Below, one piece after another: positions 3,449 through 29,637 of a DNA stretch of 64,000 nt (within the stretch, counting starts at the first letter, position 1; the number at the start of each line of letters is the position of its first letter). The translations under genes and the position numbers were made by a program. The notes beneath the pieces are model-generated. The model did not search any database and was not told the DNA's origin. It saw nothing but the letters and a program-made list of their open reading frames with translations. This DNA is from Actinoplanes cyaneus (lineage in GTDB: Bacteria > Actinomycetota > Actinomycetes > Mycobacteriales > Micromonosporaceae): positions 124,001-188,000 of the forward strand of contig NZ_BOMH01000020.1 of NCBI RefSeq assembly GCF_016862095.1. Direction: 5' to 3'.

Positions 3449-3467
3449 TCCCATCGACTCGATAGGA
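3449..3467. promoter_or_regulatory. 19-bp dyad TCCYAT-N7-ATAGGA, putative sulfur-regulator site
   Basis: The sequence reads TCCCAT-CGACTCG-ATAGGA between ssuD (start 3427) and the sulfite-oxidase-like gene (start 3477). Identical spacing and near-identical half-sites occur at 15128-15146, 15198-15216 and 29619-29637, all before sulfur-related operons. The block CCCACAAGTCC extending this site to the left is also found, on the opposite strand, next to the 15198 site. The ATAGGA half includes a plausible -10 (TAGGAT) for the rightward gene. Confidence 0.65.
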
Positions 3468-3476
3468 TGCCTCAGC

Positions 3477-4694
3477 ATGATCGATGAGGTTGCATACGAC
3501 GAGGCACGCCTGCGCGACTGGACGGCCGGGCGGGCCCGCGGCTTCTCCCGGCGTAACCTGTTCGCCCTGGCCACGGCGGTCGGCGCCGCCGGTCTGATCC
3601 CGAGCCCGGCTCGCGCGGCCGACTCCCCGATCGTCAAGCCGCTGCCGCCCGAGCTGTTCCGGGTGCTCGGCACGAACGCCGAGACGAAGTGGTCCGCCCT
3701 CAAGGACCAGGGCTACTTCGTCCCGATCGACCGGTTCTTCGTCCGCAATCACACCAGCACGCCGCGGCTCGACGCGTCCACCTGGAACCTGGAGATCTCC
3801 GGCTCGGGGCTGCGCGGCGACGCCGTACACCTCGATCTCGACGATCTTCGCCGGCTCCCGGCGGAAACCCACGCGGTCACCGTCGAATGCGCCGGGAACG
3901 GCCGCGGCTACTTCACCTCACAACAGGGACAAACCGTCTCCGGTACGGCCTGGGGCCTGGGCGCCGTCGGCGTGGCGCGCTGGCGCGGCGTGCGCCTGTC
4001 GACCGTTCTGCGCCGGGCCGGCCTGCACCGCGACGCCCTCGACGTGCAGGCGTCCGGCCTCGACCCGAACTACGTCACCGGCGGGGTGGATCTCGGCCCG
4101 GTCCGCCGTCCGATGCCGCTCACCAAGGCACTCGACGACGTGCTGCTCGCCTACGAGATGAACGGCGAGCCGCTCCCGCCCGACCACGGCCACCCGGTCC
4201 GGCTGATCGTCCCGCACTGGATCGGCATTGCCTCGATCAAGTGGGTCGGCAAGATCGAGGTGTCCGCCGAGCCGCTCTTCTCCCCGTGGAACACGCAGTT
4301 CTACCGGCTGTTCGGCCCGGAGTTCCCCGCCGAGGGCCGGCCCTTCGACAAGCAGGTCGTCAAGAGCGCCTTCGAGCTGGAACCCGGCACCACGTTCACG
4401 GCCGGCCGGCGGGTCAGGCTGACCGGGCGCTCCTGGTCCGCGAACGGCCCGATCCGCAAGGTCGAGGTCAGCACCGACGGCGGCACGACCTGGCGGCACG
4501 CCCGCTTCACCGGCCCGTCGTGGGACGGCGCGTGGCAGCGCTGGGAGTTGGACTTCAAGCCCGCCGCCGGCGCCCACGAGCTGCTCGCCCGGGCCACCGA
4601 CGTGCACGGCGTCACGCAGCCGGAGGTCGCCCGCTACAACACGCTCGGCTACCTGTTCGACGCGGTGGTCCGGGTGCCCGTCACCGCCGCATGA
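3477..4694 (+). CDS. Tat-exported sulfite-oxidase-family molybdopterin enzyme
   Basis: This 405-residue protein has a twin-arginine signal (SRRNLF at residues 24-29 followed by a hydrophobic stretch ending SPARAA), so it should fold with its cofactor in the cytoplasm and act outside the membrane. The mature part is a sulfite-oxidase molybdopterin domain with the Mo-ligating Cys in HAVTVECAGNGRG (Cys138), followed by the beta-sandwich dimerisation domain (FELEPGTTFTAGRRVRLTGRSWSANGPIRKVEVSTDGG). There is no haem domain, so electrons must go to a separate acceptor not encoded here. Divergence from ssuD, whose product is sulfite, fits sulfite detoxification or oxidation to sulfate. The ATG at 3477 is used because the open frame upstream overlaps the operator and ssuD. 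Substrate is inferred; related enzymes reduce methionine sulfoxide or other S-oxides. Confidence 0.85.
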   Translation: MIDEVAYDEARLRDWTAGRARGFSRRNLFALATAVGAAGLIPSPARAADSPIVKPLPPELFRVLGTNAETKWSALKDQGYFVPIDRFFVRNHTSTPRLDASTWNLEISGSGLRGDAVHLDLDDLRRLPAETHAVTVECAGNGRGYFTSQQGQTVSGTAWGLGAVGVARWRGVRLSTVLRRAGLHRDALDVQASGLDPNYVTGGVDLGPVRRPMPLTKALDDVLLAYEMNGEPLPPDHGHPVRLIVPHWIGIASIKWVGKIEVSAEPLFSPWNTQFYRLFGPEFPAEGRPFDKQVVKSAFELEPGTTFTAGRRVRLTGRSWSANGPIRKVEVSTDGGTTWRHARFTGPSWDGAWQRWELDFKPAAGAHELLARATDVHGVTQPEVARYNTLGYLFDAVVRVPVTAA

Positions 4695-4698
4695 GAAC

Positions 4699-12457: not shown

Positions 12458-13216
12458 TCAGACGGTGGCGCGGTCGCGGATGGCGTGGCCGACCTCGGCG
12501 CGCAGGGCCGCGAACTCGGGTGAGCCGCGCAGCTCGTCGGCGGAGGCGCCGCTGCGGGGCAGACCGATCGGCAGGTCCAGCGCGATCTGCCCCGGCCGCG
12601 GGGTGAGGACCACGACCCGGCTGCCCAGGAACACCGCCTCGTCGACGCTGTGGGTGACGAAGACGCACGTACGCCCGGAGGCCGCGCTGACCTGCCGGAG
12701 GTCGGCCTGCAAGCGTTCCCGGGTGAGCGCGTCCAGCGCCGCGAACGGCTCGTCCAGCAGCAACAGTGGATTGTCGACGGCGAGCGCCCGCGCGATCGCG
12801 ACCCGCTGCTGCTGACCACCGGAGATCTGCCACGTGCGGCGGGAGGCCACGTCGTGCAGGCCGACCCGGGTCAGAAGCTCCTCGATGCGGTCCGGGGTGG
12901 CCGGCAGCCCGGCATAGCGCAGGGCCAGCGCGATGTTCCCCCCGACGGTCTTCCACGGGAAGAGTCGTGGCTGCTGGAACACCAGCCCGGCGCCACGGCC
13001 GGGGACCGGCGGCGAGCCCGCGGTCACGACCGTACCGGCGGAGGGCTTCTCGAATCCGGCGATCAGTCGCAGCAGGGTGCTCTTGCCGCAGCCGGACGCC
13101 CCGACCAGCACCAGGAACTCCCCCGCGGGCACGGTCAGGTCGATCGGCCCGACCGCGGTGACGTCTCCGTAGGAGTGGGTCACCCCGTCGATGACGACAG
13201 CGTCAGCCGAGGACAC
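12458..13216 (-). CDS. tauB: Taurine/sulfonate-type ABC transporter, ATP-binding protein
   Basis: 252 residues with Walker [11 protein letters not shown]-loop [12 protein letters not shown] signature ISGGQQQR, Walker [13 protein letters not shown] and switch His in [12 protein letters not shown], i.e. the nitrate/sulfonate/taurine importer subfamily. It energises the permease encoded by tauC and works with the lipoprotein TauA. It is the last gene of the tauC-tauA-tauB operon; its ATG at 13216 overlaps the end of tauA by 14 bp. The start is supported by the immediate [17 protein letters not shown] strand. It could alternatively serve aliphatic sulfonates (SsuB), since the two subfamilies are not separable by motif alone. 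Confidence 0.85.
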
Positions 13217-14222
13217 TGGGCAACCCCTTCACGTAGATCGACTTCTTGACCGCGTCGAGCGTCGGCACCGCGTCGATCTTCTGCTGGGACTTGAGGAACT
13301 CGGCGGCGCTGACCAGGTTGTCCGCGAGCTTGCCGACGTTGTTCTCGGTGCCCAGCCACTCGGCCGAGGAGATGTCGGCGGGCTTGAGGAAGACGCCCTG
13401 CTTGAGCTGGTTGAGCGCGTCGTCCGGGGAGAGGTTGAGCTCGGCGCCGACCGCCTGGGACGCGGCCGCCGGGTCGTTCGCGATCACCTCCAGGGCCTGC
13501 GCCTCGACCTTGCGCCACGCGTCGACCGCCTCCGGGTGCGCGTCGGCGAACGCGGTGGAGACGACGCCCAGGTCCAGGGTGGGCTTGCCGGCCGTAGCCA
13601 GCTGGCGGCTGCTGATCAGGACCTTGCCGGTCTTCTTGAGCTCGTCGAGCGAGGGCAGCCAGGTGTACGCGGCGTCCAGGTCACCCCGGGTCCACGCGGC
13701 CTGGATGTCCTGCGGTTCCAGGTCGACGATGGTCAGGTCGGACTCCTTCAGGCCGGCCTGATCGATCGCGGCGAGCAGGCTGTAGTGCGCGGTCGAGGCG
13801 AACGGGGTGCCGACCTTCTTGCCCTTGAGCGAGGCTATGTCGGTGACGCCGCTGCCGTTGCGGGCGACCAGGGCCTCGTTGTCCCCGGCGACATCGAGGA
13901 CGAAGGCCACCTGGTACGGAATGTTCAGCGGCGCCGACAGTCCCCGCGCGACCGGCGACGACCCGATGGCCGCGATGTCGAGGCTCTTCGCGACGAAGGC
14001 CGTGTTGATGGACGCGCCGGAGTCGAACTTGGTCCACGTGATCCGGTAGTCGGGCAGCGCCTTCTCCAGCAGCCCCTGATGCTTGACGATCAGGTCACCG
14101 CTGGGGAACGCCTGGTAGGCGATGCGGATCGACTTCTTGGAGGCGTCGCCCCCACCGCTGGCGGCACCGTTACCGCAGGCCGCGATCAACAGGACGGACA
14201 CAAGGGCAGCGAATCTACGCAC
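13203..14222 (-). CDS. tauA: Taurine/sulfonate-binding lipoprotein
   Basis: 339 residues with a lipoprotein signal (MRRFAALVSVLLIAACGNG, lipobox AAC) followed by a two-lobed binding domain. The segment WTKFDSGASINTAFVAKSLDIAAIGSSPVARGL matches the TauA pattern (W-x-K-F-DSG-x-x..A-x-AGSLDI-x-x-GSSP), and KGKKVGTPFASTAHYSL is the usual phosphate/sulfonate-contacting loop of this family. It captures taurine or a related sulfonate outside the membrane and delivers it to TauC. It lies 11 bp after tauC and overlaps tauB. No taurine dioxygenase (tauD) is in the window; the nearest desulfonating enzyme is SsuD at 2.3 kb. Confidence 0.85.
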   Translation of the reverse strand: MRRFAALVSVLLIAACGNGAASGGGDASKKSIRIAYQAFPSGDLIVKHQGLLEKALPDYRITWTKFDSGASINTAFVAKSLDIAAIGSSPVARGLSAPLNIPYQVAFVLDVAGDNEALVARNGSGVTDIASLKGKKVGTPFASTAHYSLLAAIDQAGLKESDLTIVDLEPQDIQAAWTRGDLDAAYTWLPSLDELKKTGKVLISSRQLATAGKPTLDLGVVSTAFADAHPEAVDAWRKVEAQALEVIANDPAAASQAVGAELNLSPDDALNQLKQGVFLKPADISSAEWLGTENNVGKLADNLVSAAEFLKSQQKIDAVPTLDAVKKSIYVKGLPSVLG

Positions 14223-14233
14223 GATCAGTTCCT

Positions 14234-15088
14234 TTAACTAATGCCGCGCCACGGGATCAGCCGTTCCTCGGCGATCCGCAGCAGGGCGTCGATGAGCAGG
14301 CCGGAGAGGCCGATGGCGAAGAGCCCGAGCACGACCACGTCGGTCTGGGAGTAGCGCTGGGCGTCACGGACCATGCCGCCGATGCCGGGCACCCCGTTGA
14401 TCGTCTCGGCGGCGACCACCGACGAGTACGCGACGCCGACCGCCAGCCGGATCCCGGTGAAGATCTCCGGAAGCGCGCTGGGCAGCACCACGTCCCGGAC
14501 CGACTGCCACCTGTTCGCGCCGAGCGCACGGGCGGCCTCGACCAGCCCGGACGGCGCGTTGTGGACCGCGGCGGCGGTGGCGACGGCGACCGGCGGCAGC
14601 GCGGCGATCGAGAGCAGCCACAGCTTCGGGGTCTCGTCGATGCCGAACCAGATGATGAACAGGCTGAAGTACGCCAGGGGCGGCAGCGCCCGCACGAACG
14701 TGACCACCGGCTCGGCAACCACGCGCAGCCAGCTGACCGTGCCGAGCAGCACCCCGATCAGCAGGCCGCCGGCCACGCCGATGGCCGAGCCGATCAGGAT
14801 CCGCCGCAGGCTGACGCCGAGGTGCTCGATGAGCAGGTGACCGCTGTACCCGCGGACGCCGTCGTGCACGGTCGAGGTGAGGACCAGCTGGTGCCAGACC
14901 GCGCCGGGCCCCGGGATGAACGTCGGGTTCTTCAGGGTCCGGGCGGCGATCTCCCAGAGAACGTAAAGCACCAGTAACGCGAGCAGCCGGAGAGCGACGC
15001 GGCGGCGCAGGCCGCCGCCGGGCGCGAGCGCCGCTGCCGGCTTCGCGGCGCGCTCCGGCGCCGGAGCGGGGGCAAGCAAGGTGGTCAC
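14234..15088 (-). CDS. tauC: Taurine/sulfonate ABC transporter permease
   Basis: 284 residues, six or so membrane helices, with the ATPase-docking loop EAARALGANRWQSVRDVVLPSALPEIFTG. The segment VRALPPLAYFSLFIIWFGIDETPKLWLL is characteristic of TauC-type permeases. It is the first gene of a three-gene operon and starts 40 bp downstream of the sulfur dyad at 15128-15146, where TTGCCA and TAGGAA at 18 nt form a plausible promoter whose -10 is inside the dyad. The N-terminus is an Ala/Pro-rich cytoplasmic tail. Confidence 0.86.
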   Translation of the reverse strand: MTTLLAPAPAPERAAKPAAALAPGGGLRRRVALRLLALLVLYVLWEIAARTLKNPTFIPGPGAVWHQLVLTSTVHDGVRGYSGHLLIEHLGVSLRRILIGSAIGVAGGLLIGVLLGTVSWLRVVAEPVVTFVRALPPLAYFSLFIIWFGIDETPKLWLLSIAALPPVAVATAAAVHNAPSGLVEAARALGANRWQSVRDVVLPSALPEIFTGIRLAVGVAYSSVVAAETINGVPGIGGMVRDAQRYSQTDVVVLGLFAIGLSGLLIDALLRIAEERLIPWRGIS

Positions 15089-15127
15089 GGGAAACTCCAG
15101 GCAGAGGTGTGCGGGAATGCCTGCTAT

Positions 15128-15146
15128 TCCTATCGTGCCGATGGAC
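15128..15146. promoter_or_regulatory. Sulfur-type dyad at the tauCAB promoter
   Basis: Read toward tauC the site is GTCCAT-CGGCACG-ATAGGA, the same 6-7-6 layout as at 3449, 15198 and 29619. TTGCCA lies 17 nt before ATAGGA, so the right half-site covers the probable -10 and a bound protein would block transcription. The preceding AAGTCC matches the extension of the 3449 site. Confidence 0.65.
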
Positions 15147-15197
15147 TTAATGGCAATCGCCGTCCCGCTTGATGGATGGTTGTAACTTTCTCGTAAA

Positions 15198-15216
15198 ACA
15201 TATTAGACCGATAGGA
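15198..15216. promoter_or_regulatory. Sulfur-type dyad at the amino-acid ABC promoter
   Basis: The plus strand reads ACATAT-TAGACCG-ATAGGA, 38 bp before the permease start at 15255. On the opposite strand it begins CCCACAAGTCCTATCG, almost identical to the left part of the 3449 site. The left half (ACATAT) is the weakest half-site of the four copies. Confidence 0.55.
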
Positions 15217-17925: not shown

Positions 17926-18614
17926 CCACCTCGGTCGAAGACAGCCGCGTGCTGGACGATCCGGCGTGGCTCGCACTGCACGGCGAGCACGCCAGGTTCG
18001 CCCAGATCAACGGTCTGGCGGCGCGGTATCACAGCGAGGTGGCGCCGTTCCACGCGCTCGGTGACCCGGCAGACCCACAAGCGTGGCAAGACCTCGACGC
18101 GTTCGTCCCACCCGGGCAGCCCGTGATGCTGGCCGGCCTCGGCTCCCGGCCCGGCCCCGGCTGGGAGGTGGAACGCAGCATCGCCGGCGTGCAACTCGTC
18201 GACGTGTCCCTGCGCGCCGAACCCGACCCGTCGCTGGTCGTGCTGACCGCCGCCGACGTGCCGGAGATCCTCGACCTGATCGCGCGCACCCAGCCCGGGC
18301 CGTTCCTGCGGCGGACGGTCGAGCTCGGCACGTACCTGGGCATCCGGGACGAAGGGAGGCTGATCGCGATGGCCGGCGAACGGCTGCACCCGCCGGGGTG
18401 GACCGAGATCAGCGCGGTCTGCACCGACGCCGCCTACCGGGGCCGGGGCCTGGCGACGCGCTTGATCCGGGCGGTGGCGGCGGGGATCCGGGCGCGGGGC
18501 GAGACCCCGTTCCTGCACACCGGGGCGGCCAACGTCACGGCGATCCGCCTCTACGAGCAGCTCGGATTCCACCTGCGGCGGACGGTGGACTTCACGGCGT
18601 ACCGCCGCACCTGA
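17922..18614 (+). CDS. GNAT-family N-acetyltransferase
   Basis: 230 residues. The N-terminal half (to about residue 100) is less conserved; the C-terminal half is a GNAT fold with the acetyl-CoA loop [14 protein letters not shown] and the closing [25 protein letters not shown] at 17922 overlaps the binding-protein stop (GTGA) and has AAGGAAGG before it, so the gene is the last of the transporter operon. The set of amino-acid importer plus GNAT resembles the Bacillus tcyJKLMN-snaA locus, in which SnaA acetylates imported S-substituted cysteines before an LLM monooxygenase cleaves them; here LLM enzymes are encoded 2 kb away. The substrate is thus inferred to be a modified cysteine. Confidence 0.82.
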
Positions 18615-18744: not shown

Positions 18745-19686
18745 TCATTCGGCGAGGTGTCCGCCGGCGGGGGTGCCCACCGGCACCGGCGGGAACGAGC
18801 GGTGGGCGGCCTGCTCCACAAGGACGTGCCGGCACGCCTGGACCGCCGGGGTCAGCGGCCGGTCGCGGTGGTGGATCACCCCGATGGGCGGGTGGACCGG
18901 CGGGGCGTGCAGATTGCGTACCGTGATCGCCGGCCCCTGATCGTCCTCGGCCACCGACCGGGCCAGCAGGCCGACGCCGAGACCGGCCGCGACCAGGTCC
19001 CGGATGCTCCGCGGGCTGTGCGTCTCGAACGGGACCTTCGGGGCGAAACCGGCGGTACGCGCCGCGTTCTCCAGAATCCAGCGCAGCCCACTGCCCTCGG
19101 GCAGGCAGACGAACGGCTCGTCGCGGAACTCCCCGAGCGTCAGCCGGCCGGAGCCACTCAGCGGGTGACCGACCGGCAGCGCGAGCACGAGCTGTTCGTC
19201 GGCGAGCGGCAGCGCCTCGAAGCGGGCCGGCAGGTCGGCGTGGACCGGCCCGACGACGAGGTCCAGCTCGCCGTTGTCGAGCGCGCCGAGCAGGCCCGTG
19301 ATCAGGCCGGACCTCAACCGCAAGGCCAGCCCGGGGAACCGGTCGTGGAAGCGGGCGAGCGCGGCCGGCAGGTCGTAGGGGCCGAGCACCGCCGTCGCGC
19401 CGACCGTCACCCGGCCGGTGACGACAGCGGTGATCTCGCCCATCTCGATCCGGGCGCCGTCGAGCTCGGCTAGCACCCGGCGGGCCCGGGCTACGAACAT
19501 CTCCCCGGCCGGGGTGAGCGCCACCCGCCGGGTCGTCCGCGCGAACAGCGCCACCCCGAGTTCGGCCTCCAGTGCCCTGATCTGCGCGGAGACCGCCGAC
19601 TGGGCGACATGCAGCCGCTCGGCGGCACGGGTGAAGCCGCCGTAACGGGCGACCGCCTCCACGTAGCTGAGTTGTCGAAGCTCCAC
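18745..19686 (-). CDS. LysR-family transcriptional regulator
   Basis: 313 residues from GTG at 19686: VELRQLSYVEAVARYGGFTRAAERLHVAQSAVSAQIRALEAELG is a standard LysR winged helix, followed by the effector-binding domain. An in-frame ATG ten codons upstream (19716) would place a perfect LysR-type T-N11-A dyad (19690-19710) inside the coding sequence, so the GTG is preferred and the dyad becomes an autoregulatory site immediately before it. It is convergent with the amino-acid ABC/GNAT operon. Like YtlI/AscR of Bacillus it may respond to a sulfur precursor, but no second target promoter with the same dyad is seen here. Confidence 0.85.
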   Translation of the reverse strand: MELRQLSYVEAVARYGGFTRAAERLHVAQSAVSAQIRALEAELGVALFARTTRRVALTPAGEMFVARARRVLAELDGARIEMGEITAVVTGRVTVGATAVLGPYDLPAALARFHDRFPGLALRLRSGLITGLLGALDNGELDLVVGPVHADLPARFEALPLADEQLVLALPVGHPLSGSGRLTLGEFRDEPFVCLPEGSGLRWILENAARTAGFAPKVPFETHSPRSIRDLVAAGLGVGLLARSVAEDDQGPAITVRNLHAPPVHPPIGVIHHRDRPLTPAVQACRHVLVEQAAHRSFPPVPVGTPAGGHLAE

Positions 19687-19689
19687 GCG

Positions 19690-19710
19690 TTCATCGTGCA
19701 GCACGATGAA
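19690..19710. promoter_or_regulatory. LysR-type T-N11-A dyad
   Basis: Perfect 10-nt arms TTCATCGTGC and GCACGATGAA flank a single central A, containing ATCGTGC-A-GCACGAT, i.e. the T-N11-A core of LysR operators. It lies 3 bp upstream of the GTG start of the LysR gene. Confidence 0.7.
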
Positions 19711-19868
19711 TCCCATCGGGCACGTGTCTTGGACATATCAATCCGGCGGGACCGTATGTTCAATGACGCGACCGGGACGGGCTTCTCGCAGGCGTACCGG
19801 CCGGCCGGCGACGAGCAGTCCCTCCTCACCATACGGACGGCGCCGGATCACGGGGTGAGTCTGCTCGA

Positions 19869-20286: not shown

Positions 20287-21402
20287 TCAGCCGGCCCACT
20301 CCTTGGCGAGGAGCTCGAAGGAGCGGACCCGGTCGGCGTGGTCGTGCGTGATCGTGGTGATCAGGAGCTCGTCGGCACCGGTGACCCGGCGCAGGGTCTC
20401 GAGCTTGGCCGCCACCGTGGACGGGGAGCCCACGAACTGCGTGTCGACGCGGTCGGCGACGAGCGCGCGGTCCTCGTCGGTCCATTCGGCGGCCGCCGCT
20501 TCGGCCTCGCTGGGGAACGGGACCGCGCCCAGGCCGGTACGGATGCTGCGGACCCAGTGGGCATAGGGCGCGGCGAGGCGGCGGGCGGTCTCGTCGTCCT
20601 CGGCGACGACCACGTCGGCGGAGACCATCAGGTGTGGTTTCGCCAGGGACGCCGACGGGACGAACGATTCCTTGTACGCGGCGGCCGCTTCCAGGACTTT
20701 CGCGGGCGCCACGTGGTAGTTCGCGGCGAAGGGCAGGCCGCGGGCACCGGCTGTCCGGGCGCTCTCCCCGCCGCTGCTGCCGAGCAGCCAGATCTGCAGG
20801 TCGGCGCCGGCGCCGGGGACCGCGGTCACCTCGTTGCCCTTGCCGTCGCCGTAGGGGCCGGCGAGCAGCCCGCCGATCTGGTCGAGGATCTCGTCGAGGC
20901 CGAGCGGCTCGGCGCCGGGCTGCGCGAGGAGGCTGGCGGCCAGGGCGGTCCGGTCGGAGGCGAAGATCGGCGCCCAGGAGAACGGCTTCGGGATCAGCAG
21001 CCCGTCGACGACCCGTTCTTCGGTTTCCACGAAGGACGAAGTCTGCCGCAGCGCCTCTTTCTTGGCCTGTCCGGAACGGCCCAGGCCCAGGTCGAAGCGG
21101 CCGGGGTAGAGCGCGTCCAGCAGCCCGAACTGCTCCACGATGGAGAGCGCGGTCTGGTGGCCGGTCTGCACCGCGCCGGAGCCGAGCCGGATCCGCGAGG
21201 TGACCGCCGCGATCTGCCCGAGCAGCAGGGCCGGCTGGGCGGAGGCGACGCCGGGCGTGAAGTGGTGCTCGGCCACCCAGTAACGGTGGTAGCCGAAGTG
21301 CTCGGCGCTGCGCGCCAGGTCCAGGGTGCGGCGCAACGCATCCCCGACGTCACCGCCGGAGACGAGTGGGGCGAGGTCAAGAATGGAGAGGGGTACGGAC
21401 AT
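20287..21402 (-). CDS. LLM-class flavin-dependent oxidoreductase (MsnO8/YhbW type)
   Basis: 371 residues. The start MSVPLSILDLAPLVSGGDVGDALRRTLDLARSAEHFGYHRYWVAEHHFTPGVASAQPALLLGQIAAVT is typical of the single-subunit luciferase-like group that uses FMN (or F420), and RFDLGLGRSGQ supplies the cofactor loop. It is the last of four LLM genes in the operon, 5 bp after its neighbour. The set of LLM enzymes with an importer and a sulfur dyad suggests oxygenation of organosulfur compounds; no particular reaction can be assigned to this member. Palindromic repeats follow the stop codon. Confidence 0.85.
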   Translation of the reverse strand: MSVPLSILDLAPLVSGGDVGDALRRTLDLARSAEHFGYHRYWVAEHHFTPGVASAQPALLLGQIAAVTSRIRLGSGAVQTGHQTALSIVEQFGLLDALYPGRFDLGLGRSGQAKKEALRQTSSFVETEERVVDGLLIPKPFSWAPIFASDRTALAASLLAQPGAEPLGLDEILDQIGGLLAGPYGDGKGNEVTAVPGAGADLQIWLLGSSGGESARTAGARGLPFAANYHVAPAKVLEAAAAYKESFVPSASLAKPHLMVSADVVVAEDDETARRLAAPYAHWVRSIRTGLGAVPFPSEAEAAAAEWTDEDRALVADRVDTQFVGSPSTVAAKLETLRRVTGADELLITTITHDHADRVRSFELLAKEWAG

Positions 21403-21407
21403 CGGCT

Positions 21408-22421
21408 CTACCGCCCTTTCAACTGGCGTAGCACGGGGGCGACCTCGCTCGCGAACAGTTCCAGCGAAGCACGCTGCTGCTTCTCGGTGAGGCCTTCGGT
21501 GTCCGCGGACAGGTGGGTGACCTCGTGCCCGAACCGCTCGTGGTAGCGGTGCACCTTGTCGATGATCTGCTGCGGGCTGCCGATCAGCGCGGAGCTGCGC
21601 TCGACGGCGTCCTCGATGGTCGGGAAGACCGGCTCGACGCCGACCTTGCGGAACTGATCGATCCGGGCCTGCCAGATCGGCCGGTAGACGTCGAGCGCCT
21701 CCTGCGACGTGCGCGCCACGTAGAAACCGGCACTACCGGCGCCGATCCGGATGGCGGCCGGGTCATGCCCGTGGAAGGCCCAGCGTTCGCGATAGAAATC
21801 GATGAGTTCGGCGTACGGCTCGATGGGGTTGGTCACGTTGGCGGAGAACAGCGGGTCGCCGTACTGAGCGGCGAGCTCGACGGACGCCCTGCTGGTGGCG
21901 CTGCCGTGCCAGACCGTGACCGGCTGCTGCAACGGTCGTGGCCAGGTCTCCGCGTCGGTGAGCGACGGCCGGAACTTCCCCTCCCAGGTGACCCTGGGTT
22001 CGCGCCAGAGCCGCCGGAACAGCTCGTAGCTCTCCCGTTGGCGTTCCCACTGGTCCTCGACGGTGACGTGGAACAGTTGCGCCTGCGCGGTGCCGTTGCC
22101 CTTGCCGACGATCAGTTCGAGGCGCCCGCCGGAGAGGTTGTCGAGGGTGCTGTAATCCTCGAACGCGCGCACCGGGTCGAGCAGGCTGAGCGTGGTGACG
22201 CCGGTCCAGAGCCGGATGGCCGACGTCTTCGCGGCGATGTGGCTGAGGATGACCGGCGGCGCCGAGGAGAGGAACGGCCGCTCGTGCCGCTCCCCCACGG
22301 CGAACCCGTCGAAGCCGAGCTCCTCGCCGAGCACAGCACTGTCGACCACCTCGCGCAGCCGCTGCGCCGGGCTCTTGTCCTTGTCGAAGTAGGTGATCAG
22401 GGTGAGCAGCAGGAACTTCAT
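21408..22421 (-). CDS. LLM-class flavin-dependent oxidoreductase
   Basis: 337 residues of the luciferase-like fold: MKFLLLTLITYFDKDKSPAQRLREVVDSAVLGEELGFDGFAVGERHERPFLSSAPPVILSHIAAKT, then FEDYSTLDNLSGGRLELIVGKGN with the cofactor-binding loop, and SPQQIIDKVHRYHERFGHEV near the end. Its ATG at 22421 overlaps the stop of the upstream gene by 4 nt. It belongs to the same operon as the dipeptide-type importer; role inferred as a monooxygenase in organosulfur breakdown. No clear orthologue with a known substrate was recognised. Confidence 0.86.
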   Translation of the reverse strand: MKFLLLTLITYFDKDKSPAQRLREVVDSAVLGEELGFDGFAVGERHERPFLSSAPPVILSHIAAKTSAIRLWTGVTTLSLLDPVRAFEDYSTLDNLSGGRLELIVGKGNGTAQAQLFHVTVEDQWERQRESYELFRRLWREPRVTWEGKFRPSLTDAETWPRPLQQPVTVWHGSATSRASVELAAQYGDPLFSANVTNPIEPYAELIDFYRERWAFHGHDPAAIRIGAGSAGFYVARTSQEALDVYRPIWQARIDQFRKVGVEPVFPTIEDAVERSSALIGSPQQIIDKVHRYHERFGHEVTHLSADTEGLTEKQQRASLELFASEVAPVLRQLKGR

Positions 22422-23686
22422 GCCAGCCCCAGGTTTGCGCGCAAGGTCGAGGACTCGTAGGAAGTGCGGAAGACGCCGCGTTCCTGCAGCAGCGGGACCA
22501 CCTGGTCGACGAAGTCGTCGAGCCCGGCCGGCGTCAGGTGCGGGACCAGGATGAACCCGTCACAGGCATCGGTCTGTACGTATTCGTTCAGAAGAGAAGC
22601 GACCCGGTCGGGCGTGCCGATGAAGTTCTGCCGCCCGGTCACCTCGATGACCAGGTCCCGGATCGACAGTTTCTTGGCCTCGGCGAGCGCGCGCCACTCG
22701 TTCGCGGTCTTCAGCCGGTCGGGGAACATCCCGGCCCGGCCCTTGATGATCGTGTCGGCCTCGTCGAGCACCGGGTCCACCGCCGGCAGCGGCCCCTCCG
22801 GGTCGTAGGCGGACAGATCCTGGTTCCAGAGCTGCTCCAGCAGCAGGATCGCGGTCTGCGGGGTGACCTGCTGCCGCCGGATGTGGTGCGCCTTCTCCTG
22901 GGCGTCGGCGTCGGTGTCCCCCAACACGTAGGAGACGCCCGGGATGATCTTCAGAGAATCACGGTTCCTGCCGTACGCGGGGAGCCGGTCCTTGACGTCG
23001 CGATAGAACTGCTGGGCGTCGTCGAGCTTGTGATGCCGCGAGAAGATCGCATCCGCGTAGCGGGCGGCCAGGTCACGCCCCTCGGAGGAGTCCCCGGCCT
23101 GCAGGACGACGGGCCGCCCCTGCGGGCTGCGCGGCACCCCGAACCGGCCCTTGATGTCGAACTGCGAGCTGGTGATCGCGAAGTCCCCGCCGTCGGAGTC
23201 CCACAGCGTGCGCGCGGCCTCGATGAACTCGCCGGCCCGCCGGTACCGGTCGGCGTGGTCGAGGAACCCGCCGCGGCGGAAGTTCTCGCCGAAGAACGCG
23301 CCGTGCGAGGTGACCACGTTCCACGCCGCCCGCCCGCCGGACAGGTGGTCGAGCGTCGCCAGTTGGCGGGCCAGTTCGTACGGCTCGTGGAAGGTGGCGT
23401 TCAGCGTGCCGGCCAGCCCGAGATGGGTGGTGACGGCGGCCAGCGCGGTCAGGACGGTCAGGGTGTCCGGGCGGCCGACCACATCCAGGTCGTGGATCAG
23501 TCCGCGCTGCTCGCGCAGGCGCAGGCCCTCCGCGAGGAAGAAGAAGTCGAACTTGCCCCGCTCCGCCGTACGCGCGAGGTGTTCGAAGGAGGAGAACTCG
23601 ATCTGGCTTCCCGAGCGTGGGTCGCTCCAGACGGTCGTGTTGTTCACGCCGGGGAAGTGGGCGGCGAGGATGATCTGCTTAGGCAT
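22418..23686 (-). CDS. NtaA/SnaA/DszA-family monooxygenase
   Basis: 422 residues. MPKQIILAAHFPGVNNTTVWSDPRSGSQIEFSSFEHLARTAERGKFDFFFLAEGLRLREQRG and the central GGRAAWNVVTS, FRRGGFLDHADRYRRAGEFIEAARTLWDSD are hallmarks of the family that includes nitrilotriacetate monooxygenase, DszA and the Bacillus S-alkyl-cysteine monooxygenase CmoJ (YtnJ). These use FMNH2 from a separate reductase to cleave C-N or C-S bonds. No reductase gene is adjacent. It overlaps both neighbours (8 nt upstream, 4 nt downstream). Of the four LLM proteins it is the best candidate for cleaving an acetylated S-substituted cysteine delivered through the GNAT at 17922; that link is inference. Confidence 0.88.
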   Translation of the reverse strand: MPKQIILAAHFPGVNNTTVWSDPRSGSQIEFSSFEHLARTAERGKFDFFFLAEGLRLREQRGLIHDLDVVGRPDTLTVLTALAAVTTHLGLAGTLNATFHEPYELARQLATLDHLSGGRAAWNVVTSHGAFFGENFRRGGFLDHADRYRRAGEFIEAARTLWDSDGGDFAITSSQFDIKGRFGVPRSPQGRPVVLQAGDSSEGRDLAARYADAIFSRHHKLDDAQQFYRDVKDRLPAYGRNRDSLKIIPGVSYVLGDTDADAQEKAHHIRRQQVTPQTAILLLEQLWNQDLSAYDPEGPLPAVDPVLDEADTIIKGRAGMFPDRLKTANEWRALAEAKKLSIRDLVIEVTGRQNFIGTPDRVASLLNEYVQTDACDGFILVPHLTPAGLDDFVDQVVPLLQERGVFRTSYESSTLRANLGLA

Positions 23687-24677
23687 TCGCGGCCTCCTGG
23701 GAATAGCGGTTGACCGCCACCGGCAGCCCGAGGCGTTCGCGCAGCGTGGTGGCGGTGGACGGCGCGAAGAGGCCGCGCTCGCGCAGCACTCCGGTCAGCT
23801 CACCGGTGATCGTGGTCAGGTCGGCGGGGGTGCCCGGGCGCAGCCGCACGCCCGCGATCCCGGCCGGCTCCCAGCTCGCGATCAGGTCCGCGAGCTGGGC
23901 GGGAGTGCCGGCGAAGACGGCCGCGTCCGAGGTGGTGGCGCCGCGCCGCCGGATCGCGGTCTCCTGGTCGGCGTCGAGGAACACGACGACGTCGGCGAAG
24001 ACCTTCTTCTCCGCCGGGAGCTGACGGACGATCGTCGCGGCATTGTCCACGTCGGCCGGTGTCACGAAGTAGACGTCGACGTCGAGGCGCTCCCAGACCC
24101 GGGCCTGGTGCGTGAGCGCGGCGATCACCGGCTGCCCCTGCGGCGGCCGCGGCACGATCGAGGGCCCCTTGACCGTGAAGTGCTCGCCGGCGAAGTCGAT
24201 GTAGTGCAGCTTGTCCCGGTCGACGAACCGGCCGGTGGCGACGTCCTTGATGATCGCGTCGTCCTCCCAGCTGTCCCAGAGGCGGCGCACCACCTCGACC
24301 GCGTCGGCCGCCTCGGTGAACAGGTCGTCGAAGCCGAGCGGCGCCCGCTGCCCGAGCAGGTCCGCCTCGGCCGGGTCGGCGGAGACCCGCACCTGCCAGC
24401 CGGCCCGTCCCCGGCTGACCCAGTCGAGCGTGGCCAGCGCGGTCGACAGGTGGAACGGCTCGGTGTGGGTGGTGGTCGCCACCGGAACGAGCCCGATGTG
24501 CCGGGTGACCGGCGCGACCCGGGAGGCGACCAGCACCGCGTCCGGTCCCCGTCGCCCGAACGCGTCGTCGAAGGTCACGAAGTCCAGCCGGGCGTCATCG
24601 GCCTGCTGCACCGCCGCGACCCAGTCCTGCGCCGCGAACGATCGATCGTCGAGGGCGACCGCGACCTGCAGTGTCAT
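23679..24677 (-). CDS. LLM-class flavin-dependent oxidoreductase (short NtaA-like)
   Basis: 332 residues: [65 protein letters not shown]... DWVSRGRAGWQVRVSADPAEADLLG. The order of the secondary-structure blocks and the WVSRGRAGWQV loop relate it to the NtaA/DszA group but it is about 90 residues shorter. It overlaps the ATPase gene end by 4 nt and the next monooxygenase by 8 nt. Predicted FMN-dependent monooxygenase; substrate unknown. Confidence 0.83.
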   Translation of the reverse strand: MTLQVAVALDDRSFAAQDWVAAVQQADDARLDFVTFDDAFGRRGPDAVLVASRVAPVTRHIGLVPVATTTHTEPFHLSTALATLDWVSRGRAGWQVRVSADPAEADLLGQRAPLGFDDLFTEAADAVEVVRRLWDSWEDDAIIKDVATGRFVDRDKLHYIDFAGEHFTVKGPSIVPRPPQGQPVIAALTHQARVWERLDVDVYFVTPADVDNAATIVRQLPAEKKVFADVVVFLDADQETAIRRRGATTSDAAVFAGTPAQLADLIASWEPAGIAGVRLRPGTPADLTTITGELTGVLRERGLFAPSTATTLRERLGLPVAVNRYSQEAANA

Positions 24678-26218
24678 GCTGAAACCTCCAAAGTGGGCAC
24701 GGCCGCCAGCAGCCGGCGCGTGTACTCGTGCTGGGGCTGCTCGAAGACGGCCTGCGACGTCCCCTGCTCCACGACCTGGCCGTCCTGCATGACCAGCACC
24801 CGGTCGGCGAGGTCACGGACCACGCCCAGGTCGTGCGAGATGAACAGCAGCGCCGTCCCGTCCCGCTCGCGGATCCCGGCGAGCAGATCGAGCACCTGCT
24901 CCTGCACCGAGACGTCGAGCGCGGAGACCGGCTCGTCGCAGATGATCAGACTCGGTCGCGGGGCGATGGCCCGGGCGATCGCGACGCGCTGCCGCTGACC
25001 GCCGGAGAGTTGCCGTGGATAGCGGTCGAGCACGTCCCCGCCGAGCCCGACCCGTTCCAGGACCGGCGTGACCGATTCGCCGCGGGGCAGGGCCTCGGCG
25101 ACGATGCGCCGGACGGTCCAGCGCGGGTCGAACGCCGACAGCGGGTCCTGCGCGATGAACTGCAACCGGCGCCGCAGCGGCCGCCGGGCCCGCTCGGGCA
25201 CCCCGCTGAACCGCTGGCCCTCGAATCGGACCTGGCCGGAGGTGGGTTCGACGAGCCCGAACAGCAGCTGCGCGACGGTCGTCTTGCCCGAGCCGGACTC
25301 GCCGACCAGGCCGACGATCTCGCCGCGCCGGATCGTCACGCCGACGTCGCGGACCACGGCGCGGTCGCCGTAGACCTTGCGCAGCGCGGTCGCCTCGGCG
25401 ACGACCGGCCCGGGCTCGGCGGTGCTCTCGCGCCGGCGGCCGCTCGCCGCGGCGATCAACTTCCTGGTGTACGGGTGGTCAGCTCCGGACAACAGCCGCT
25501 TGGTGGTTCCCGACTCGACGAGCCGGCCGTCCTTCATCACCAGCACCCGGTCGGCGAGCCGGGACACCACGGCCAGGTCGTGGCTGATCAGCAGCAGGGT
25601 GTCGCCCAACGAGCGGCGCTCGGCGAGCAGTTTCAGGATCTGCGCCTGGACCGTGGCGTCCAGGGCGGTGGTGGGCTCGTCGGCGATCAGCAGTTTCGGG
25701 CCGCCGGCCAGCGCGGAGGCGATCAACGCGCGCTGGCGCAGGCCGCCGGAGAGCTGGTGCGGGTACTGCCCGGCGCGGCGCTCCGGCTCGGGGACGTGCA
25801 CCTCGTCGAGCAGTCGGAGGGCTTCCCTCGTACGCTCGGATCGGCTTCTCGAGGAGTGGACCCGCAGCACCTCGGCGATCTCGGCGCCCACCGTGCGCAG
25901 CGGATCGAGCGAGACCAGGGCGTCCTGCAGGACCAGCCCGGCGAAGCCACCCCGCAGGCGCCGCCAGTCGCGGGGGGCGAAGCGGCGCGCGTCCTGACCG
26001 TCGACCTCCAGCGTGGCGGCGTCCACCCGCGCGCCCGGACCGGCCAGTCCGACCAGGCTGCGGGCGGTGACGCTCTTGCCGGAGCCGGACTCGCCGACGA
26101 TCGCGACGCACTCGCCCGGCTCGATCGTGAAGCTGACGCCGCGGACCGCCTCGACCGTGCGCCGGGGCAGGTGGAACGTGATCGTGAGGTCCTCGACCCG
26201 GACCAGTGGCGGCGTCAC
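24674..26218 (-). CDS. Dipeptide/oligopeptide-type ABC ATPase, two domains fused
   Basis: 514 residues containing two complete nucleotide-binding domains, equivalent to DppD-DppF in one chain. Domain 1: Walker [11 protein letters not shown], signature [12 protein letters not shown], Walker [13 protein letters not shown]. Domain 2 (from about residue 265): [34 protein letters not shown]. Each is followed by an HPYTRKL / HEYTRRLL peptide-transporter tail. The GTG at 26218 overlaps the permease stop (GTGA); a much longer open frame upstream crosses the permease genes and is not real. It energises the permease pair at 26215 and 27073. Confidence 0.92.
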
Positions 26219-27069
26219 GCGAGCTCCCTTCCCTCGAAGCGGCGCTGGAAGAAGCGCCCGACGACGGTCAGGGAGATGATCGTGGCGGTGACCACGAGGC
26301 CCGGCAGGACCGATGCCCACCAGGCGATGTGCAGGTATCCACGGCCTTCGGAGATCATCGCGCCCCATTCCGGCGAGGGTGGTTGCGGGCCCATGCCGAG
26401 GAAGCTGAGGCCCGCGGCGAGCAGGATCGCCTCGCCGAGACCGATCACGGCGAGGACCGGGATCGGGCCCAGCACGTTCGGCAGCACGTGCCGCAGCACC
26501 AGGCGGGGCCGGGTGGCGCCGAACGCGACGGCGTGGGTAACGTACGCGGCCCGGCGCACCACGAACGTCTGCGCCCGCACCACCCGCGCGAAGTGCGGCA
26601 CCAGGGCGATGCCGATCGCCACGATCAGGCTGGTGGTGCCGGTCCCGGCGATCGCGATGAACAGCAGCGCGAGCAGGACCAGCGGGAACGCCGACAGCGC
26701 GTCGAACGAGCGGCTCAGCGCCTCGTCGGCGACCCGGTGGCCGAGGCCGGCGAGCAGGCCGAGCAGGATGCCGGTGCCGACCGCGATCAGCGTCGCGGAG
26801 ACCCCGATCGACAGCGAGTGCCGGGCGCCGTGCACGACCCGGGCGAACACGTCGCGCCCGAGCTGATCGGTGCCGAACCAGTGGCTCCCGGACGGCGCTC
26901 CGAGCACGTGCAGCGGGTCGGCCCGCAGCGGATCGCCGGCGAACAGCGACGGCCACGCGGCCGCCAGCAGGGCCACCAGCAGGAACAGGACGGCCACGAC
27001 GACGCCCGGGCGGGCCGGGCGCAGCGAGCGGAGACGGACGGCCCGGGGGCCGGTCAGCGCGATCGTCAT
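26215..27069 (-). CDS. Dipeptide/oligopeptide-type ABC permease (DppC-like)
   Basis: 284 residues, about six membrane helices, with HWFGTDQLGRDVFARVVHGARHSLSIGV, the DppC/OppC signature, and the docking loop (AVAFGATRPRLVLRHVLPNVLGPI). SFLGMGPQPPSPEWGAMISEGRGY is another C-type marker. It overlaps the fused ATPase by 4 nt and lies 3 bp after the B-type permease. Works with the SBP at 27969; in this operon probably imports a sulfur-containing peptide-like or sulfonated compound. Confidence 0.92.
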   Translation of the reverse strand: MTIALTGPRAVRLRSLRPARPGVVVAVLFLLVALLAAAWPSLFAGDPLRADPLHVLGAPSGSHWFGTDQLGRDVFARVVHGARHSLSIGVSATLIAVGTGILLGLLAGLGHRVADEALSRSFDALSAFPLVLLALLFIAIAGTGTTSLIVAIGIALVPHFARVVRAQTFVVRRAAYVTHAVAFGATRPRLVLRHVLPNVLGPIPVLAVIGLGEAILLAAGLSFLGMGPQPPSPEWGAMISEGRGYLHIAWWASVLPGLVVTATIISLTVVGRFFQRRFEGRELA

Positions 27070-27072
27070 CGG

Positions 27073-27972
27073 TCAGCTCCTTCGCAACCGTGGGTCGATG
27101 AGCAGGTACGCGAGGTCGGTGACGGTGTTGATGACGACGAAGACGGCAGCGGCCAGGATGACGACGGCGAGCACCACCGGCAGGTCGCTGGAGTTGACCG
27201 CCTGCACGGTGACCTGCCCGAGCCCGGGGCGGCCGAAGACCTGCTCGATGATCACCGTGCCGCCGATCAGCACCCCGAACGACCAGCTGAGCATGGTCAC
27301 CGCCGGCAGCAGCGCGTGCTTGAGCGCGTGCCGGGTCAGGACCGCTCGTTCCCGCAGCCCGCGGGCCCGGGCGGTGACCGCGAACGGCTCCTCCAGCGCC
27401 CGGTCCAGACCCTCGCGCAGCACCTGCGCGAGGGTGCCGGCGATCGGCAGGCCCATCGTGATCGCCGGCAGCACCAGGGCCGCGAAGCTCCGGTCGCCGG
27501 AGACCGGGAACCAGCCCAGGGTGAACGAGAAGACGCTGAGCAGCACGATCCCGATCAGGAACGGCGGGGTGGAGACCAGAACCAGCCCGATCACCGAGGT
27601 GAGGCGGCGGGCGAAGATCGCGAAGACCAGGGCGAGGACGAGCCCGAAGACGGCCGCGGCGACGGCCAGCTTCAGGGTCGGCACCAGTTGGCTGCCGATC
27701 ACCGCGGAGACCGGGCGCTGCAGCAGGTAGGACCGGCCGAGGTCGCCGTGCGCCGCGCGCCAGAGGAAGTCCAGGTACTGCACCAGGGCCGGGCGGTCGA
27801 GGTGCCATTCGTCGATGATCTGCGCGCGGATGCCCGGGGTGTCGGCGCCGTCTCCGATGATCGCGTCGACAGTGCTGCCCGGGGCGGCGAGCAGCGCCAG
27901 GTAGGCGGCGGACGCGGCGGCCCAGAGGACCAGCACGCCCGCGCCCACCCGGCGCAGGACGGCCGTGATCAC
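27073..27972 (-). CDS. Dipeptide/oligopeptide-type ABC permease (DppB-like)
   Basis: 299 residues: DEWHLDRPALVQYLDFLWRAAHGDLGRSYLLQRPVSAVIGSQLVPTLKLAVAA is the DppB/OppB signature, with docking loop ARARGLRERAVLTRHALKHALLPAVTML and the closing IEQVFGRPGLGQVTVQAV. It overlaps the SBP stop by 4 nt. Partner of the permease at 26215. Confidence 0.92.
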   Translation of the reverse strand: MITAVLRRVGAGVLVLWAAASAAYLALLAAPGSTVDAIIGDGADTPGIRAQIIDEWHLDRPALVQYLDFLWRAAHGDLGRSYLLQRPVSAVIGSQLVPTLKLAVAAAVFGLVLALVFAIFARRLTSVIGLVLVSTPPFLIGIVLLSVFSFTLGWFPVSGDRSFAALVLPAITMGLPIAGTLAQVLREGLDRALEEPFAVTARARGLRERAVLTRHALKHALLPAVTMLSWSFGVLIGGTVIIEQVFGRPGLGQVTVQAVNSSDLPVVLAVVILAAAVFVVINTVTDLAYLLIDPRLRRS

Positions 27973-29597
27973 TTGCTCAGCCAGAGGTTGTAGGCGTCGA
28001 CCGGGACACCGGCGGTCGGCTCGAACCCGGTGCCGCCGACCGACTTCGACGCGGCGATCTGGTCCTGCGGGGCGTAGAGCGGCTGCACCAGCGCCTGGTC
28101 GGCGACCACCAGCTTCTGGACCTGCTTGTACGTCTCGGCACGGTTGGCCTGGTCGGTGGTGGCGATCGCGGCGTCGAGCAGCTTGTCCAGCTCGGGGCTC
28201 TTGTAGCCGGTGCGGTTGATCGAGCCGGTCGAGTAGAGCAGCAGGTTCAGCGCGGCGCCGGCGTCGGTGTCGGCACGGGAGTTGTCGAACAGCTCGTACT
28301 CGCCGTCCGCGAGGGCCTTGGTGGCGGTGCCCTGGTCGACCAGCTGGATCTGCACGTCGATGCCGGCGCTCTGCTTCACCGCGGCCTGCACGGCCTGTGC
28401 CAGCACGTCACGGCGGTCGCGGATGTACGGGGCGGACTGCACGAGACGTACCGTCAATCGCTTCCCGTCCTTTGTCCGGAAGCCCTCGGCGTCCTTGGCG
28501 GACCAGCCGGCCTGGTCCAGCAGCTGGTTGGCCTTGCCGGCGTCGCCGCCATAGCTGCCTTCCAGCGACTTGTCGTAGAACGGACTGGTCGGTCCGATCA
28601 CGCTCCACGCCCTCGTCGCGGTGTTCCGGTAGACCCCGTTGAGCACCGCGGGCACGTCCAGCGCCTCGCGGAACGCCTGCCGGACCAGCACGTCGTCGAA
28701 CGGCGCGTGGGCGGTGTTGAAGTAGTAGGAGTACGTGGAGCCGGAGTTCAGCCCGCGCACCAGCGACAGGTCGGGGTTGGCACTGATCAGCGACTCGTCG
28801 GTGGCCGGGACGCCCTCGATGATCTGGACCTGGCCGGAGGTCAGCGCGCCGACGCGCACCGACGACTCCTTCAGGAAGCGGTAGGTGATCCCGTCGAGGT
28901 ACGCCGGACCGGAGTGTCCGGCATTGGCCGGCGCCCAGTTGTACGCCGGGTTCTTGGCGAAGTGCACCTCCTGGCCGGGGGTGTAGCGGTCCAGGACGAA
29001 CGGGCCCGTCCCGGCCAGCTCGGTGCCGCCCGCCTTGAGGTTCTTCGCCTCCTTCAGCGACTTCGGCGAGACCTGCGCGCCCTGCGGCGAGGAGAGGAAG
29101 TCCAGGATCAGGACGTCCGGCTTCGTCAGCTGGAACACGACGGTGGAGTCGTCCTTGACCTCCACCCGGTCGAGGTTCTTGAGCTGGACGGCGGCGACGT
29201 TGGGCGCGTAGTTCGGCACCAGGAGCTGATCGATGTTGGTCTTGACCGCGGCGGCGTCGAACTTGGTGCCGTCCGAGAAGGTGACGCCGGGGCGCAGCGT
29301 GAAGGTGTACGTCCGGCCGTCCTGCGACACGTCGTAACCGCTGGCCAGCCAGGGCAGATAGCCACCCTTGTCGTCGTGGGTGAGCAGGGCCTCGAAGCTG
29401 TTCCAGACCAGCAGGCGAGCCTTGGCCTGTGAGTACAGATGGGGGTTGAACGTGATCGGCTCGGTCTCGACGGCCCAGGTCAGGGAGCCGCCGCTGACCG
29501 GGGCGCCGGCGTCGGCGGAGCTGCCCGGCGATCCGCCCGAGCAGCCGGCGACGGTGAGCAGGGCGATGGTAAGAATCGTGGCGCTGAAGCGGCGCAT
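27969..29597 (-). CDS. Dipeptide/oligopeptide-type substrate-binding lipoprotein
   Basis: 542 residues of solute-binding family 5. Lipoprotein signal MRRFSATILTIALLTVAGCSGG; then GGSLTWAVETEPITFNPHLYSQAKARLLVWNSFEALLT, the usual first lobe, and TYTFTLRPGVTFSDGTKFDAAAVKTNID, which is nearly diagnostic for the family. The ATG at 29597 has AGGAGG upstream; the frame stays open to 29780 without homology. It is the first gene of the eight-gene operon and starts 22 bp after the perfect dyad at 29619-29637. Binding specificity is inferred to be organosulfur from the regulon and the four downstream monooxygenases. Confidence 0.92.
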   Translation of the reverse strand: MRRFSATILTIALLTVAGCSGGSPGSSADAGAPVSGGSLTWAVETEPITFNPHLYSQAKARLLVWNSFEALLTHDDKGGYLPWLASGYDVSQDGRTYTFTLRPGVTFSDGTKFDAAAVKTNIDQLLVPNYAPNVAAVQLKNLDRVEVKDDSTVVFQLTKPDVLILDFLSSPQGAQVSPKSLKEAKNLKAGGTELAGTGPFVLDRYTPGQEVHFAKNPAYNWAPANAGHSGPAYLDGITYRFLKESSVRVGALTSGQVQIIEGVPATDESLISANPDLSLVRGLNSGSTYSYYFNTAHAPFDDVLVRQAFREALDVPAVLNGVYRNTATRAWSVIGPTSPFYDKSLEGSYGGDAGKANQLLDQAGWSAKDAEGFRTKDGKRLTVRLVQSAPYIRDRRDVLAQAVQAAVKQSAGIDVQIQLVDQGTATKALADGEYELFDNSRADTDAGAALNLLLYSTGSINRTGYKSPELDKLLDAAIATTDQANRAETYKQVQKLVVADQALVQPLYAPQDQIAASKSVGGTGFEPTAGVPVDAYNLWLSK

Positions 29598-29618
29598 GGA
29601 CGACCTCCTCTCCCTATT

Positions 29619-29637
29619 TCCTATAGGTCGAATAGGA
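29619..29637. promoter_or_regulatory. Perfect 19-bp dyad at the eight-gene operon promoter
   Basis: TCCTAT-AGGTCGA-ATAGGA: exact inverted repeat, the best match to the consensus shared with 3449, 15128 and 15198. On the operon strand TTGCCT and TAGGAA are 17 nt apart, so the -10 lies within the dyad, implying repression. Confidence 0.7.

Follow-up and report, generated by a model that had tools for sequence, protein, structure and literature searches.

A palindrome conserved across Actinoplanes lies at promoters of sulfur-scavenging genes and is the predicted operator of an Rrf2-family repressor

What are four short inverted repeats doing at the heads of sulfur genes in Actinoplanes cyaneus? 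They lie in a window of 64,000 nucleotides (contig NZ_BOMH01000020.1, positions 124,001 to 188,000), the whole stretch of DNA analysed here, and were proposed on reading the letters to be copies of a 19-bp dyad, TCCTAT-N7-ATAGGA, that defines a sulfur regulon. Such a regulon is supported by the present analysis: the sites are part of a palindrome found throughout the genus, and a model of it finds nine places in this genome, by sulfur or sulfur-plausible genes. The dyads are probably the operators of a sulfur-scavenging regulon and, to judge from sequence, would be bound by a cysteine-free, CymR-like repressor of the Rrf2 family, encoded elsewhere in the genome (G000:C31:48878-49288) and predicted to repress its own gene.

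The 19-bp dyad proved to have a real core within a longer operator of about 25 bp. A two-mismatch genome scan of the kind proposed (TCCYATN7ATRGGA) gave 107 forward matches against 132 reversed in the 10.36 Mb, 183-contig genome of A. cyaneus, a signal not separable from noise. At one mismatch, TCCYATN7ATAGGA gave 17 strand matches at 10 places, compared with 2 for the reversed control, and four of these places (L001, L002, L003, L008) adjoin sulfur genes. Alignment of sites yields the palindromic consensus TATTCCTATC-N5-GATAGGAATA. With up to one mismatch, TTCCTATN7ATAGGAA is present in 18 of 40 genomes, A. cyaneus counted (17 of 24 from the genus and one of 16 others); the control for this 21-bp version found one place (G020) among the 40. 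With up to two mismatches, ATTCCTATN7ATAGGAAT occurs at 133 places in 55 of the 67 genomes of the genus set (Actinoplanes sensu lato, Micromonosporaceae), at most 7 per genome, and its reversed control gave 0 in all 67. The longer palindrome is real and genus-wide.

No Rrf2 gene lies in the window, as had been remarked; a family search of the whole genome returned two full-length Rrf2 genes, both elsewhere, together with four partial or weak matches. One of the two bears out the earlier hint at this family: its own promoter contains a site, and the gene opens an SsuA-family ATP-binding cassette (ABC) operon. This gene, G000:C31:48878-49288, is followed by genes for a binding protein, an ABC ATPase and a permease; the binding protein passes the SsuA-family cut-off (207.4 bits against 163.5), and the palindrome lies just 5' of the Rrf2 gene. 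Its product belongs to PF02082 (108.8 bits, cut-off 30) and TIGR00738 (110.1 bits, cut-off 73.3), and its closest relatives among named records are those of Actinoplanes liguriensis (98% identical) and A. siamensis (97%). An orthologue is present in 65 of the 67 genus genomes, including all 55 that are motif-positive; the other two, G008 and G022, have the second paralogue only.

A matrix trained on 65 Rrf2-promoter sites (44 unique), none of them from A. cyaneus, finds a site of at least 22.1 bits in all 66 Rrf2 promoters scanned (G005 has two copies), 65 of which are the training loci, with the A. cyaneus promoter standing outside the training set. In these promoters TTGAC lies at -29 in 52 of 66 and [CT]ANNAT ends at the first base of the core in 64 of 66, so that the operator abuts the -10 element. 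Column conservation falls from 0.86 within the site to 0.71 over the preceding 35 bases and 0.50 farther upstream. The regulator itself is without cysteines in 63 of 65 orthologues and has one in the remaining two, which makes an iron-sulfur cluster in the A. cyaneus protein unlikely. Its C-terminal tails vary across the genus, and nothing in their sequences points to a conserved terminus for CysK binding.

The same matrix was then run over the window, where the four proposed sites took ranks 1 to 4; in 40 Markov windows used as a control, an average of 0.1 position reached 8 bits or more and the top single score was 15.6. A further candidate, absent from the original prediction, ranked fifth. 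The operators are as follows.

3448..3468: operator 1, GTCCCATCGACTCGATAGGAT, between a divergent luciferase-like (LLM) monooxygenase gene (ATG 3427, minus strand) and a molybdopterin/sulfite-oxidase-like gene (ATG 3477, plus strand); 8.6 bits, rank 3
15127..15147: operator 2, TTCCTATCGTGCCGATGGACT, 40 nt 5' of the start of a tauC-like permease gene (15088, minus strand); 22.4 bits, rank 1
15197..15217: operator 3, atypical, AACATATTAGACCGATAGGAC, 39 nt 5' of the start of an ABC permease gene (15255, plus strand); 8.25 bits, rank 4
29618..29638: operator 4, TTCCTATAGGTCGAATAGGAG, whose core is a perfect palindrome, 22 nt 5' of the gene for an OppA-type binding protein (ATG 29597, minus strand); 14.0 bits, rank 2
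62833..62853: candidate operator 5, TCTCTGCAAAACCAGTAGGAA; 7.97 bits, rank 5

Candidate operator 5 lies 5' of a cluster that by Pfam domains encodes a ROK regulator, an ABC permease, an NMT1-type binding protein and a sulfatase (62816 to 57628, minus strand). The sixth-ranking match, with its core at 4231, falls within the sulfite-oxidase coding sequence and was taken as chance.

All four dyads (3449, 15128, 15198 and 29619) were found where they had been placed, with the 6-7-6 layout, and by reading of the sequence they stand some 10-40 nt from start codons. The copy at 29619 is indeed a perfect inverted repeat (0 mismatches to TCCTAT-N7-ATAGGA), with 1 mismatch at 3449, 2 at 15198 and 3 at 15128. 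The description of the other copies as keeping ATAGGA and most of TCCYAT holds in part: at 15128 ATAGGA appears on the minus strand only, and at 15198 the left half reads ACATAT. Pfam domains of the neighbouring genes agree with the identities first guessed for them.

2282..3427, minus strand: ssuD-like LLM monooxygenase (PF00296)
3477..4694, plus strand: molybdopterin oxidoreductase, sulfite-oxidase-like (PF00174, PF03404)
12458..15088, minus strand: tauC-like permease, NMT1/OpuAC-type binding protein and ABC ATPase (PF00528, PF09084, PF04069, PF00005)
15255..18614, plus strand: amino-acid-type ABC transporter (permease, ATPase, SBP_bac_3) and GNAT acetyltransferase (Pfam)
18745..19716, minus strand: LysR-type regulator (PF00126, PF03466)
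20287..29597, minus strand: OppA-type binding protein, permease and ABC ATPase genes, and four LLM monooxygenases (Pfam)

The proposed spacing of TTGCC(A/T) 17 nt before ATAGGA or TAGGAA can be read 5' of both tauC and the oppA-like gene, and at these two promoters the -10 would accordingly fall inside the dyad.

The window sites are also kept in orthologous loci, for which the 30 best of 52 listed matches to the ABC permease and the 30 best of 89 to the monooxygenase were used, the A. cyaneus locus being counted in each set. In 28 of 30 ABC-permease loci, the intergenic region corresponding to 15128/15198 holds one or more sites scoring above 4 bits. The monooxygenase loci also gave 28 of 30, one with its site solely in coding sequence, leaving 27 of 30 with an intergenic site. 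Of 36 loci examined outside A. cyaneus, 10 have a site 5' of the gene for an OppA-type homologue. It is this conservation and the independently trained matrix, not the number of dyads, that raise the four window sites above chance.

Operator 3 is a case apart. Its left half reads CATAT, and 22 of 30 orthologous loci (A. cyaneus counted) keep the asymmetric element TAAAACATAT-N7-GATAGGACTTGTGGG, mostly together with ACTTGTGGG or near variants. The flank CCCACAAGTCC, which had been described as sequence shared by two sites, is present exactly at both, at 3441 (plus strand) and 15214 (minus strand). Allowing one mismatch and counting the A. cyaneus locus, it recurs in 19 of 30 orthologous ABC-permease loci versus 5 of 30 monooxygenase/sulfite-oxidase loci. 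Since the asymmetric form at 15198 is conserved mostly with ACTTGTGGG, CCCACAAGTCC belongs mainly to the ABC-permease promoter, and it was rejected as a regulon-wide element. In the window (15197-15235) and in the orthologues L271-L299, CCTAGC or CCTACC recurs about 15-20 nt past TAAAACATAT-N7-GATAGGACTTGTGGG.

Which other genes would such a regulon contain? From 101 drawn sites, 12 were removed by eye, atypical ones among them, and a sequence-only model was built from the 89 that remained, none from A. cyaneus. Its search of the A. cyaneus genome returned 16 matches at nine places, with best E-values per place from 0.009 to 4.6. The places lie by the following genes.

GCS2 glutamate-cysteine ligase, which we take to be EgtA
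FMN (flavin mononucleotide) reductase and a divergent winged-helix gene
The LLM monooxygenase/sulfite-oxidase pair at 3449
An SBP_bac_5 protein (in G013 the gene of its homologue diverges from that of a monooxygenase)
The Rrf2-SsuA operon
MetQ/MetN
tauC
Cysteine dioxygenase
An NtaA/DmoA-type (LLM) monooxygenase

For seven of the nine the genes are plainly concerned with sulfur or are redox partners; for the other two a sulfur role is plausible. The same bias is seen in other genomes. The TTCCTATN7ATAGGAA scan gave 38 places outside A. cyaneus, of which 36 were examined with query genes taken from the linked genes of A. cyaneus; 30 adjoin homologues of the linked classes, namely the ligase (11), OppA-type proteins (10), FMN reductase (5) and monooxygenases (4, one of them weak and outside the genus). 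The other six adjoin none of the query genes and include neighbours such as carbonic anhydrase, AhpC/TSA, DUF1684, acyl-CoA-dehydrogenase-like and sub-threshold luciferase-like proteins. The palindromes 5' of the carbonic anhydrase (L048), DUF1684 (L051) and acyl-CoA-dehydrogenase-like (L035, presumably DszC-like) genes may mark unsuspected sulfur genes.

We infer from these placements a simple circuit. With cysteine or sulfate in good supply, Rrf2 dimers would occupy the palindromes and block RNA polymerase, at their own gene as well. When sulfur is short, a small-molecule or protein signal would free the operators from Rrf2. Uptake systems for sulfonates, peptides, amino acids and methionine would then be expressed, along with the FMN reductase, the flavin monooxygenases, the sulfite-oxidase-like enzyme, cysteine dioxygenase and glutamate-cysteine ligase.

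The association of palindrome and Rrf2 gene is also found in other genera of the family. With the same matrix, and no retraining, a site of at least 8 bits was found at an Rrf2 or ABC promoter in each of the eight loci from named genera: four of Micromonospora, three of Virgisporangium and one of Plantactinospora. In three Micromonospora loci the site scores 23.9 to 29.4 bits and lies directly 5' of the gene for an SsuA-family binding protein that heads an ABC-Rrf2 operon. In Micromonospora endophytica, Plantactinospora and the three Virgisporangium it lies 5' of Rrf2, and all of these five loci except one Virgisporangium have a second site 5' of the following gene for a sulfate-type binding protein. 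The binding proteins of seven of the eight loci were tested, and all seven pass SsuA-family or sulfate-binding cut-offs.

Other proteins might nevertheless bind the sites. LysR-type proteins control sulfur metabolism in other bacteria, according to the available text of two papers (PMC3141025, PMC2940859), and a LysR gene (18745-19716) sits among the sulfur genes of the window. LysR boxes follow the rule T-N11-A, which the CTAT-N7-ATAG core fits. A CysB/Cbl-like activator such as this one is nonetheless an improbable binder. The window LysR, the only one compared, is present (E <= 1e-90) in 34 of the 67 genus genomes and in 32 of the 55 that are motif-positive (23 are without it), whilst all of these 55 have Rrf2; near the LysR start no matrix position scores above -6.1 bits, and in other genera the palindrome stands at Rrf2 operons. 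The second Rrf2 gene of A. cyaneus (L011-type, G000:C30:78277-78666) is another rival, which might bind the operator or share it with the first. It too encodes a cysteine-free protein, about 46% identical to the first and present in all 67 genus genomes, and some 17 kb separates the gene from the FMN-reductase site. The protein groups with Rrf2 proteins of Phycicoccus and Janibacter beside sulfate-binding-protein or TauE genes, and of eight such Phycicoccus-like loci two contain a site scoring at least 8 bits (L224, L228). Three L011-type loci that were scanned, however, have no site near their own gene (best 2.5 bits), G008 and G022 keep this type only and have no strict sites, and the recognition helices are unlike (PRKFLEAVLADLR vs PLSFLQGILLDLR). 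A role for this paralogue has a low probability in our estimate. A third Rrf2 paralogue (58-59% identical), at L128 (G001) and L129 (G060), shows no good palindrome match.

Two further alternatives concern what the palindrome means rather than which protein binds it. It may be the operator of the G000:C31 Rrf2 but respond to a signal other than sulfur supply, such as oxidative or thiol stress, as sites by the GCS2 ligase, an AhpC/TSA protein (L049) and carbonic anhydrase (L048) could suggest. We regard this as unlikely, given that the linked genes are mostly for the uptake or release of organic sulfur and that in other genera the Rrf2 gene heads a sulfate-transport operon. The dyads might, finally, be chance pairs of AT-rich hexamers at the promoters of a GC-rich genome, with no common regulator, and both the window count and the degenerate two-mismatch scan are at chance level. 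Set against this are the 133 genus places with none in the reversed control, the conservation of sites in orthologous loci and the ranks 1-4 given by a matrix from other promoters, and as a general account it is very improbable indeed. Chance is already unlikely for the whole palindrome and may still explain the weak single sites at 15198 and 62833.

A number of observations weigh against the attribution of the palindromes to a sulfur regulon under the G000:C31 Rrf2. The group of the L011-type protein sits by sulfur genes, and that protein could therefore share the operator; the palindrome in the Rrf2 promoter could also be the site of some other regulator, one that acts on Rrf2. Of the ten places given by the one-mismatch scan, six (L004-L007, L009 and L010) adjoin no recognisable sulfur gene. 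The window holds 4 dyads at up to three mismatches, near the chance expectation (shuffle mean 2.38, with 22 of 100 shuffles reaching 4). G008 and G022, which lack the G000:C31-type Rrf2, have zero strict sites (Fisher p = 0.03), a co-loss that is weak because some genes of the regulon are absent from these genomes as well. Among 26 genomes searched, G008, G022, G002 and G017 are without the GCS2 gene (E <= 1e-30), and G002 and G017 keep Rrf2. Ten genomes with Rrf2 show no strict site in the 67-genome scan. Only 4 of 29 further same-family loci from Micromonosporaceae have a site of at least 8 bits; in many of the remainder Rrf2 seems to lie 3' of the ABC genes, with the operon promoter seemingly beyond the scanned stretch, but L138 is a clear negative, having the Rrf2 gene and no such site. 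As for the predicted regulon, the by-eye removal took out atypical sites and so tightened the model. Its E-values, rough as such values are, exceed 0.1 at seven of the nine places and 1 at five. With 150 of 461 candidates scored, and with the sites at 15198 and 29619 not among the matches, the list is incomplete. At the FMN reductase place, the winged-helix gene is nearer to the site.

The G000:C31 Rrf2, the probable binder, resembles several known regulators in part. CymR of Bacillus subtilis and Staphylococcus aureus (PDB 2Y75, 3T8R) belongs to the same family (PF02082; its structures score 49.7 and 51.7 bits against the family profile) and has sulfur and cysteine targets, as predicted here for the operators. 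CymR is without the cysteines that ligate an iron-sulfur cluster, as is the G000:C31-type protein. They differ in that the linked genes here are mainly for organosulfur scavenging, and the Actinoplanes protein scores only 65.6 bits against the CymR equivalog cut-off of 195 (NCBIfam NF047409), so far below it that the protein is assigned to the Rrf2 family, with a function like that of CymR, and is not itself called CymR. CymR is described in the available text of PMC2940859 as complexed with CysK, the sensor of O-acetylserine. IscR, NsrR and RirA are of the same family, with profile matches to IscR structures, but they have three conserved cluster-ligand cysteines that are absent from the G000:C31-type protein. 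McbR/CysR of Corynebacterium and CysB/Cbl of enterobacteria are likewise regulators of sulfur supply, as far as the available texts go (PMC2580772, PMC8557817, PMC3141025), though they are of the TetR, ROK and LysR families, unrelated to Rrf2.

The nearest lead in print appears to be a proteomics study of Rhodococcus qingshengii IGTS8, the available text of which ties an actinobacterial Rrf2 protein, IGTS8_peg394, a 'CymR/Rrf2' candidate for a global sulfur regulator, to sulfur limitation (PMC8557817). That text gives no DNA motif or regulon and describes its immediate neighbourhood as without sulfur metabolism genes, whereas operator, autoregulation and regulon are all predicted for the Actinoplanes Rrf2. 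It also reports that strain IGTS8 has no homologues of CysB, Cbl, CmbR or McbR, and mycobacterial counterparts of CysB/Cbl had not been identified as of 2011 according to the available text of PMC3141025. A literature search, with most subscription papers and bioRxiv outside its reach, listed no paper that in its title or the opening of its abstract reports a DNA motif for a sulfur-related Rrf2 protein of Actinobacteria. Now that a regulator gene has been named, together with its predicted 25-bp operator, a promoter that looks autoregulated and a set of targets, sulfur control becomes directly testable in the Micromonosporaceae, a family known for antibiotic producers. The regulon also offers a way to approach flavin monooxygenases and transporters that have yet to be characterised.

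Outside the family the motif fades. Sites of at least 8 bits are present in two of eight Phycicoccus-like loci (L223, L224, L226, L228, L230-L233), where the Rrf2 genes adjoin TauE or sulfate-binding-protein genes in the cases checked, and in two of nine from Streptomyces, where L215 and L218 share the same 25 letters with an 11.4-bit match 5' of Rrf2 and the seven others have none at 8 bits. One Actinomycetota locus (L236) and one Clostridiales locus (L238) also reach 8 bits. The recognition helix is unlike among the groups, reading SFLQGILLDLR in Micromonosporaceae, KFLEA..DLR in Phycicoccus and relatives and RFLF..ELR in some Streptomyces. It is attractive to consider, albeit tentatively and with slightly less than even confidence, that a mostly cysteine-free Rrf2 clade acts as a general sulfur-limitation repressor of Actinobacteria. 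Such a clade would travel with sulfonate- and sulfate-transport operons and fill the place that McbR/CysR has in Corynebacterium. Its operator would change with the recognition helix, from TTCCTA..TAGGAA in Micromonosporaceae to TCCTA..TAGGA forms in Phycicoccus and relatives and TTCAC..ATGAAC-type forms in some Streptomyces. Because the motif fades outside the family and the other palindromes come from single sequences, this covariation of helix and operator is best called suggestive.

The TTCAC..ATGAAC-type palindromes were seen by a simple arm search of single sequences 5' of Rrf2 in Streptomyces L220, L221 and L229. At L229 the divergent gene encodes an FAD-NAD(P)-binding protein (PF13454).

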